From SAR92 clade bacterium H455 (lineage in GTDB: Bacteria > Pseudomonadota > Gammaproteobacteria > Pseudomonadales > Porticoccaceae), in assembly GCA_024802545.1 (NCBI GenBank), contig CP103416.1, forward strand, positions 1,116,001 through 1,180,000: a DNA stretch of 64,000 bases, written 5' to 3'. The notes under the pieces were generated by a model. It had not been told where the DNA came from. It worked only from the letters and a program-made list of their open reading frames with translations, and made no database searches. Every line of letters begins with the position of its first letter. The first letter of the stretch is position 1. This document shows positions 1 through 26,242 of this stretch, in pieces. The position numbers and the translations under genes were made by a program.

Positions 1-396
1 GGTGGGGAAGGCAAGCGTGCCTATCACCACACAGCGCCGGTTAACTGTCTCTATGGTCTGCATGAATCATTAGTGATGGTTCAGGATGAAGGGCTGGAAA
101 ATGCCTGGCAGCGTCATCAGAGCAATCACGAGCTGTTGCGCCAGGGTTTAGAACAGATGGGTATTGCATTTTTGGTCCCAGAGGCAGATCGCCTGCCGCA
201 GCTGAACACTGTATTTATTCCCGAGGGTATTGATGATGCCGCGGTGCGCACCCAGCTATTAAATGATTACAACCTTGAAATTGGCGCTGGCTTGGGAGCA
301 CTGGCGGGCAAAGTCTGGCGTATTGGCCTGATGGGTCATGCCAGCAAGCAGGCCAATATTGATTACTGCCTGTCATCTCTAAAAGCCGTTATCTAG
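1..396 (+). CDS. Class V aminotransferase, C-terminal part
   Basis: The reading frame is open from the first base, so the gene begins before the window and only about 131 C-terminal residues are visible. The residues YHHTAPVN near the edge are typical of the alanine-glyoxylate / serine-pyruvate class of PLP-dependent class V aminotransferases, where they follow the active-site lysine region. The end of the small domain is also typical, with GAGLGALAGKVWRIGLMGHAS close to the C-terminus. The enzyme should move an amino group between serine or alanine and glyoxylate or pyruvate in the cytoplasm. The PLP lysine lies outside the window, so activity cannot be checked. The next gene faces the opposite way. 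Confidence 0.85.
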   Translation, partial: GGEGKRAYHHTAPVNCLYGLHESLVMVQDEGLENAWQRHQSNHELLRQGLEQMGIAFLVPEADRLPQLNTVFIPEGIDDAAVRTQLLNDYNLEIGAGLGALAGKVWRIGLMGHASKQANIDYCLSSLKAVI

Positions 397-22048: not shown

Positions 22049-23206
22049 CTAGTTATTAAACTCATCCGCCCAAACTGGACTGGCTGATGAACTAGCATTA
22101 GGTGCATACACTCTGACGTAATCAACTTCCATCTCGTCTTTGGTAAAGCTGCTGGCGATATTGGGTTCTATGGCAAAATTCAGCAGCAGGTACTGATCGG
22201 CGTCGAAGGGCCAGGTAGCTGAATTTTTGTCGTTTGGTGCATAGGTGTAATGTTCAACACCATCGACACTAAAGATCATCCGGTCGGCATTCCAATCCAG
22301 TGAGTAGACATGGAACTCGGTTGAAGCTGTGGCTATATACTGACCGTCCACGTTAACTGTGCCACCGGAGCTGGAAGGCGTATGCAGGGCGCTGGAAATA
22401 TAATTCTGATTGTTTCCCCAGTGCTCCATGATGTCGATTTCTCCAGAAGCTGGCCAGCCAACAGTGCCAAAGCCCTGGGTCTGCCAATAGCCGCCGTTCT
22501 CGTCAATGTTTTTGCCCAGTGTCCAGATCGCCGGCCAGGTGCCAAAGCCCTGAGGCAGCTTGGCTCTTACGTCGACTCGCCCATAGGTAAAGGCATACTT
22601 CGAGTTAAGCCGCGCTGAGGTGAACTGCTTAGTGCGATCTTGATCGGTAAAACTCTCTCTTATGGCGACAATTTTCAATGTGCCGTCACTGACATAAGAA
22701 TTTTCGATACGATTGGTGTAATGCTGTATTTCGCCGTTGTACCAGCCATTGCCATCGGGCAGGCGGGTTTGATGAAACCATTTTTCCGAGTCTATAGCCT
22801 GGGGGCCAGCAGGGGTGGCGGGGCTAGCGGCAACAACTGTGACTGTTCGAGTTGCGGTAGCTGAATTGCCTGACTCATCAGTAGCTGTGTAAGTAATAGT
22901 GTAAACACCTACTGCATCGGCAATTGTTCCTGAGGTGATCGCTGTCACGCTCCCATCAACGGCGTCAGTGGCTTTTGCGCCTGAATCCGTATAGCTGCTG
23001 CCCTGCTCAATGGTCAGGTTGAGAGAACCTATAACCGTGATCACTGGTGGAGTGGTATCGGTTGGTGTGACTATGGGCTCTGGGCTGGACTGAATTGAGC
23101 CACCACCGCCTCCACCGCAGGCCAATAGACCGCCGAATATAATTGTCGTTGTCAGCCCAGAAAGTCGCAGCGCATTGCTGCGCAACCAGTTTGTTTTCAT
23201 CGTCAT
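22049..23206 (-). CDS. GH16 laminarinase-like lipoprotein with an Ig-like domain
   Basis: A 385-residue surface lipoprotein. The signal peptide ends in a lipobox (GGLLAC) followed by a glycine run. Residues about 45-130 form an Ig-like domain of the DUF5011/HYR type (YTDSGAKATDAVDGSVTA). The GH16 catalytic domain has the nucleophile and acid/base in GEIDIMEHWG, and INGEIQHYTN-type residues near its start. It should cut beta-1,3-glucans such as algal laminarin. The family's first strand, usually VWxDEFNG just before xIDxxKW, is absent there; the last residues are instead PVWADEFNN followed by the stop. The gene lies opposite trhO. Confidence 0.9.
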   Translation of the reverse strand: MTMKTNWLRSNALRLSGLTTTIIFGGLLACGGGGGGSIQSSPEPIVTPTDTTPPVITVIGSLNLTIEQGSSYTDSGAKATDAVDGSVTAITSGTIADAVGVYTITYTATDESGNSATATRTVTVVAASPATPAGPQAIDSEKWFHQTRLPDGNGWYNGEIQHYTNRIENSYVSDGTLKIVAIRESFTDQDRTKQFTSARLNSKYAFTYGRVDVRAKLPQGFGTWPAIWTLGKNIDENGGYWQTQGFGTVGWPASGEIDIMEHWGNNQNYISSALHTPSSSGGTVNVDGQYIATASTEFHVYSLDWNADRMIFSVDGVEHYTYAPNDKNSATWPFDADQYLLLNFAIEPNIASSFTKDEMEVDYVRVYAPNASSSASPVWADEFNN

Positions 23207-25426: not shown

Positions 25427-26242
25427 CTACTGCGCCAGTTGCTGAGCAACTTCAGCTGAGCGCAGCTGAAAGGATGCAATCTGAGCTGCTTGAACAGTCA
25501 TCTGCTGACGCACCGCCAAGAGTTCGGCTTCAAACAGTGCATTTTGTTCGAGCAACAAATTTAGTACTGTTTGCTGTGCTTGGTTTTCTATATGGCCGCG
25601 CTGTAATTCCGATAGTAGTAGTGGCGTTAGCAAATGGTAAAACACCGCTAGTGGCTTGCCTTCGGCGTCAAATTTCACCAGTTCAGGTAGTATTCTGGCG
25701 ACTTCTTCTGCAATTAAACCAAACTGCATTGGGAAAGCACCTTTTTCATCAGCCTGTTTGTAGCGGAAAGTCACCGGGCGCAGGTTTAAAATTTTCTCGC
25801 TAATGGTATCCAGAGATTGGATGTCTTTCTTAAAACGCTGTGACGAAGGCTGGGTGCCCAGTTGACCACTAGAGTTGATATAGACGGCGGCGCCACCACT
25901 AGCGGTAACCCCAGAGATACCGGCTATATAGGCGCCCAGATGCTTGCCCTGAGTACCCATGCGAATAATATAGGACTCGGTGTTGGCACCGGCGGAGGCC
26001 ACATAGATATTGTGACTGCCCGAGGTCAAGCCATAGCCAGCCTGATAGCCAATTGCGGTATTGGAGGTGCCGCCTTTGTTATAGGTGGCAGTCGCCCCAG
26101 TATTATTGGCCAGCGCGTTTATGGGGAAAAATAACGCTAGGCACAGGGTCAGGAAATATGTTTTTAGCCTTGTTACGTTGTGATAAATGAATAAGATCGT
26201 TAGCTTGGGGTATGGCCGAGAGATTGTAGTGGGGGCCTGCAT
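25427..26242 (-). CDS. Surface protein with a C-terminal intramolecular chaperone (peptidase S74) domain
   Basis: A 271-residue exported protein. A signal-type hydrophobic segment (about 30-45, ending INALA) is followed by head-repeat-like stretches (SNTAIGYQAGYGLTSGSHNIYV) and then by an S74 intramolecular chaperone domain. The S74 domain starts at SSQRFKKDIQSLD and includes FGLIAEEVARILPELV and a coiled coil at the C-terminus. Such domains trimerise a fibre and then cut themselves off at the conserved Ser before the R-F/L-K motif. They occur in phage tail fibres and bacterial surface fibres. No other phage gene is nearby, so I take it as a host surface protein. Confidence 0.75.
   Translation of the reverse strand: MQAPTTISRPYPKLTILFIYHNVTRLKTYFLTLCLALFFPINALANNTGATATYNKGGTSNTAIGYQAGYGLTSGSHNIYVASAGANTESYIIRMGTQGKHLGAYIAGISGVTASGGAAVYINSSGQLGTQPSSQRFKKDIQSLDTISEKILNLRPVTFRYKQADEKGAFPMQFGLIAEEVARILPELVKFDAEGKPLAVFYHLLTPLLLSELQRGHIENQAQQTVLNLLLEQNALFEAELLAVRQQMTVQAAQIASFQLRSAEVAQQLAQ

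Follow-up and report, generated by a model that had tools for sequence, protein, structure and literature searches.

A laminarinase-like GH16 domain of SAR92-like bacteria with its canonical first strand at the C-terminus

Described GH16 permutants and the protein encoded in the window

A natural circular permutation has been described within GH16 for the 1,3-1,4-β-D-glucanase of Fibrobacter succinogenes (Tsai et al. 2003, as cited in PMC4606783 and PMC2395249), and the earlier note on this DNA had pointed to such an enzyme. Engineered permutants of a Bacillus GH16 glucanase (1CPM, 1CPN, 1AJK, and 1AJO; sites 59, 84, and 127 of 2AYH, as given in PMC2395249) resemble the present case in that joined termini are tolerated in the GH16 fold, but they are artificial. 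The closest solved structure to the protein described here is that of ZgLamA, a GH16 laminarinase from Zobellia galactanivorans (PDB 4bow, 4bq1, and 4bpz), which has the same catalytic E-x-D-x-x-E and the canonical strand order. Laminarinase-like proteins of Bacteroidota (e.g., L016, L020, L037, and L052) belong to the same subclade as our domain; they are canonical in order, and many continue into a C-terminal extension. The Fibrobacter glucanase reportedly has the same two termini joined as the present enzyme, and it is a lichenase reportedly cut much deeper in the fold, with several strands moved; the enzyme studied here is laminarinase-like and has only strand 1 moved. No permuted laminarinase was found in the titles or abstract openings of the open-access papers listed, and the part of PMC4606783 consulted mentions permutation once, in the Fibrobacter reference.

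The protein is encoded on the minus strand at 22049..23206 of the window (the whole 64-kb stretch of DNA that was analyzed), where ORF translation, Pfam, and phmmer defined a permuted GH16 laminarinase-like protein of 385 amino acids. Translation gave a hydrophobic leader (residues 1–30; 23117..23206, minus strand) ending in LLAC (C30) and followed by six glycines; we take this ending to be lipobox-like, and the protein is probably lipid anchored. Pfam placed an Ig-like domain at residues 56–124 (22835..23041, minus strand; PF16403, also HYR PF02494). The GH16 core without its usual first strand runs from AIDSEKWFHQ to VDYVRVY (residues 137–367; 22106..22798, minus strand), as delimited by Pfam, phmmer, alignment, and the predicted model, and alignment to ZgLamA located the catalytic motif GEIDIME within it (residues 255–261; 22424..22444, minus strand). 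A variable linker, APNASSSAS (residues 368–376; 22079..22105, minus strand), recognized by comparison of permuted cores, joins the old C-terminus to the canonical first strand, PVWADEFNN (residues 377–385; 22052..22078, minus strand), which the motif survey, phmmer, and the predicted model identified in its present C-terminal place, directly before the stop codon. The earlier note had described a domain that starts at AIDSEKWFHQ without the strand and a protein that ends PVWADEFNN-stop, and both features were seen in the ORF.

Membership of GH16 was indicated by a PF00722 match at residues 192–364 (Pfam; 74.6 bits vs a gathering cut-off of 22). The E, D, and E of the catalytic E-x-D-x-x-E, present as GEIDIME, were invariant in 38/38 aligned rows, and E256 and E261 align with Glu269 and Glu274 of ZgLamA, which are catalytic residues according to the part of PMC4606783 consulted. 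The best solved sequence matches in phmmer were ZgLamA and ULam111, followed by other laminarinases. These data suggest a secreted GH16 endo-β-1,3-glucanase of laminarinase type, with laminarin as the probable substrate by family resemblance.

The phmmer alignment of the window protein with ZgLamA 4bq1 (E 9.9e-63) began only at D139, which corresponds to chain residue 26. The last 53 residues, searched alone, matched the canonical laminarinase 6xof in two pieces: residues 1–36 of the query paired with its C-terminus (227–267), and residues 43–52 (ASPVWADEFN) paired with its N-terminus (24–33, YKLVWADEFN), the latter match being weak alone (3.3 bits). The start of the Pfam match, at model position 26 of PF00722 in the window protein, was set aside as proof of a missing strand. 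The match started at model position 5 in the permuted L014 and at position 13 in the canonical domain of L091, and for that reason the PF00722 model seems to be short of strand 1 and uninformative on it.

Strand order and conservation across GH16 cores

Strand order was surveyed in loci L001–L159 together with the window, which were drawn from the best 80 of 116 relatives in GTDB genomes, 112 genomes of the window's family, and further stretches. The query matched 53 of the 112 family genomes, some of them only through the Ig-like part or a distant GH16. The survey held 144 distinct GH16 cores, 133 of them full length; identical cores were left out, as were 11 partial cores in which the sequence covered contained the C-terminal strand (3), the N-terminal strand (3), or neither (5). 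The strand-1 motif was scored with the pattern [VILAFMTS][WFYV]x[DE][EDA]F, which was settled after the sequences had been seen and is partly fitted to the data; its background was 7 matches across 279 non-GH16 ORFs (94,461 residues in total) and 0/279 in the 22-residue tails of those ORFs.

In this survey, which includes the best 80 of the 116 relatives, the motif lay solely before the core in 89/133 full-length cores and solely after it in 44/133; no core had the strand on both sides, as an intermediate would, and none had it on neither side. An upstream AYxDDF was the first motif match in six of the 89 canonical rows, each of which also has a LVWSDEF-type strand adjoining the core. The order suspected in the window protein, and proposed in the earlier note to be checked in relatives, is common to all 44 permuted cores; this is a clade-wide circular permutation and not an oddity of a single gene. 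In 32/44 permuted cores the protein stops one or two residues past D-E-F, and in 12/44 it continues for at least 119–1165 further residues, some loci stopping before the gene end. A Pfam scan of seven permuted proteins showed that the strand is the last element of L102 and L128 and that five proteins continue: into Ig-like and CotH domains in L126 and L129, thrombospondin-3 repeats in L126 and L014, a second, canonical GH16 in L091, and sequence with no Pfam match in L134. Since permuted proteins either stop or continue into varied sequence, the moved strand is the end of the GH16 domain whatever comes next.

Domain combinations varied among the loci. In L091, L112, and L128 a single protein carries both a permuted and a canonical GH16 domain, and either may come first; in several other loci (e.g., L108, L109, and L111) the two kinds of domain occupy separate ORFs. 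Very long proteins at L126:4170-9383 and L129:2102-7399 combine CBM6, permuted GH16, Ig-like, and CotH kinase domains.

Within the moved strand, D, E, and F were identical in 44/44 permuted cores, and the position two before D was W in 33 and F in 11. The same cores had 37 different linkers of four to nine residues, the shortest being of four to five residues (QSGN and DLNNQ). Tail codons were mixed: GAT in 26 and GAC in 18, GAG and GAA in 22 each, and TTT in 35 and TTC in nine. In comparisons that ignore the relatedness of the sequences, pN/pS was 0.16 for the tail (six codons, 946 pairs; pS of 0.94, with synonymous sites near saturation) and 0.56 for the linker (406 equal-length pairs of the 946). 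Because D-E-F is invariant, its codons vary, and the tail pN/pS lies below that of the linker, selection appears to act on the tail at the protein level.

The permuted domains were also scored against a profile built from 30 canonical domains, with only the eight tail residues moved to the front. This rotation raised the score in 44/44 permuted domains, by 7.2–16.0 bits (mean of 12.6); shuffled tails gave gains of 1.1–11.8 bits (mean of 3.7; >5 bits in 11/44), a range that overlaps the true one at its edges. Held-out canonical domains (n = 31) deprived of the strand-1 region lost a mean of 27.0 bits, which is above the rotation gain.

Predicted structure and competing explanations

AlphaFold2, given residues 134–385 and 37 relatives, predicted a GH16 jelly roll with a mean pLDDT of 93.4 and a pTM of 0.91. 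Residues W379–D381 (WAD) formed a β strand, and the ten-residue block had a mean pLDDT of 96, with an average of 68 for the last two residues; the structure prediction that had been suggested as a check returned a strand there and not a free tail. The canonical control, L016 (mean pLDDT of 89.0), had a strand over the matching LVWQDE. By DSSP, the C-terminal strand of the permuted model spans three residues vs six in the canonical control. In VIA-align, residues 1..235 of the permuted model aligned with 148..383 of 4bq1 (229 residues, Z of 33.2, rmsd of 1.7, 48% identical), and residues 1..249 of the control model aligned with 134..383 (242 residues, Z of 33.6). Given that the control covers 134–383 and the permuted model 148–383, the latter lacks the N-terminal stretch of ZgLamA at 134–147, which the control matches, and has a spare C-terminal strand. 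The structure alignments left this strand unplaced; it would dock at the canonical strand-1 site. The structure of the Fibrobacter glucanase was not among the matches listed for the permuted or the control model.

Taking together the strand order, its conservation and restriction to one family in the sampled genomes, the catalytic motif, and the predicted C-terminal strand, all established by computation, we read the protein as a natural circular permutant whose moved strand folds in cis, with a probability of about 0.9. The earlier suggestion of a possibly permuted GH16 domain is supported by 44 permuted cores and by a C-terminal strand in the model. The chain would be cut in the short loop that leads from canonical strand 1 (VWxDEFN) to the AIDxxKWFHQ segment, and the old termini of the domain would be linked by the variable linker. 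Strand 1, synthesized last, would fold back within the same molecule to its usual place, pairing in cis at the canonical site and completing an otherwise normal jelly roll with the catalytic site intact; the enzyme would most likely act as a normal retaining endo-β-1,3-glucanase. The tether to the Ig-like domain would then exit the GH16 domain at another point of the surface. The permuted order may have arisen from a tandem duplication whose outer parts were then lost, a route that we only infer because no two-strand intermediate occurs among the 133 cores.

The order by itself cannot separate pairing in cis from pairing in trans, and the model is of a monomer only, so the C-terminal strand might instead complete a neighboring molecule, by donor-strand or domain-swapped exchange, in an oligomeric enzyme. 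Linkers as short as QSGN and DLNNQ suit a turn in cis, and the monomer model is confident; we regard such exchange as quite improbable. It is still harder to see the tail as a functionless, decaying remnant of a lost second GH16 domain behind a first domain that folds without strand 1. Proteins with two GH16 domains do exist in the window's family (L091, L112, and L128), and duplication with deletion is one proposed route to permutation according to the part of PMC2395249 consulted. Against decay stand the retention of D-E-F in every permuted core, a low tail pN/pS (0.16 vs 0.56 for the linker), and the finding that the strand is absent on both sides in none of the full-length cores. Moreover, at least 119–1165 residues follow the strand in 12/44 permuted cores, and four of the five such proteins that were scanned with Pfam have further domains (L134 has none), which include a GH16 in L091 only. 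A lost second domain, which the earlier note had named as the alternative that would speak against permutation, was rejected on the grounds of conservation, codon use, and the sequence behind the strand. That an N-terminal strand is hidden by a wrong start codon, a frameshift, or an assembly error is scarcely credible: nothing found speaks for it, the reading frame stays open across the leader and the Ig-like domain, and other genomes of the family, as well as MAGs, have the same order.

Why a permutant folding in cis would have been kept can be discussed only tentatively. Neutral drift is enough to account for the kept order. Another proposal, less likely than not, is that the moved tether was itself the advantage that preserved the permutation, in that the anchor, the Ig-like part, or a carbohydrate-binding part exits at the far end of strand 1. 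If this were true, the moved tether would alter how the active cleft meets laminarin, and the new topology would be an adaptation that became fixed in SAR92-like bacteria, in an enzyme whose unpermuted twin (~63–72% identity) is used by competing Bacteroidota.

Distribution, history, and genomic setting

All 44 permuted cores came from the window's family (Porticoccaceae, SAR92-like) among the genomes sampled, with family assignment by kinship or by the labels Porticoccaceae, SAR92, Pseudomonadales, or Gammaproteobacteria MOLA455; the permuted form was not seen outside this family in the sampled genomes. The closest canonical rows among the best 80 of 116 relatives (n = 22) were 63–72% identical to the window's core and nearly all from Bacteroidota. 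The motif lay before the core in all of 61 close canonical cores and after it in none, and these were labeled Bacteroidota except for L029 (Klebsiella pneumoniae) and L061 (Methylophilales). The latter two fall among Bacteroidota in the tree and are probably errors of binning or naming. We know of few natural enzyme permutations caught with both orders alive at 63–72% identity and confined to one bacterial family. The permuted and canonical forms make a natural experiment on whether the order of strands matters to how a jelly-roll enzyme folds, how stable it is, and how it is attached.

The core protein at E <= 1e-60 matched only the window's own genome among 369 genomes of the class, and at 1e-50 it matched seven of 390 genomes of the order, all in the window's genus. 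The codon pattern W-x-D-E-F-x-stop, which is blind to two residues after F (as in the window's own tail; 0 in G000), to F in place of W, and to permuted domains with further domains behind, and whose stop also admits TGG, occurred at 25 places in 23/110 family genomes, and 19 of these places were permuted GH16, including one fragment. The pattern also occurred at five places in the 369 genomes of the class and at two places in 49 genomes with canonical relatives; no place in either set matched the GH16 core profile.

A tree built from the core without the strand columns placed the permuted rows inside the Bacteroidota group, adjoining L037 and L052, and in 88% of the 200 bootstrap trees a branch set them apart from the other rows. 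The branch uniting the permuted rows had values of 83 (ultrafast bootstrap, which had not settled) and 0 (SH-aLRT), and owing to this low support (83/0) a single origin of the permutation is likely and favored but not proved. The simplest history would be transfer from Bacteroidota, or an ancestor shared with them, followed by one permutation in the Porticoccaceae line. The genes flanking the window's permuted gene, which from their sequences we take to be agmatinase-like on one side and trhO-like on the other, recur in the same order around permuted GH16 in L004, L010, L013, and L076, and because this order is shared, the window's copy seems to have been inherited in place.

A record labeled X_MB111 holds two permuted genes (L014 and L076), and the part of PMC10108472 consulted gives the name X_MB111 to a SAR92 MAG, one of four that carry laminarin PULs and were highly expressed; carriers of the permuted gene are bloom-associated bacteria. 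A search for GH17 in the window's own genome gave no match, but the control genomes gave none either, so that this negative carries no information. The only other PF00722 match in that genome, L159:1720-2625 (plus strand), has the canonical order, and an in-frame stop divides it into two open segments; because of that stop, the permuted gene alone is uninterrupted among the GH16 matches found there. In genome G057 (L173, L103, and L140), a fragment of a permuted GH16 gene with several stops, likely a pseudogene, lies near an intact one. Elsewhere in the window, the C-terminal stretch encoded by the ORF at 25427-26242 (minus strand) has what we take to be a resemblance to S74, the self-cleaving chaperone of phage tail proteins.
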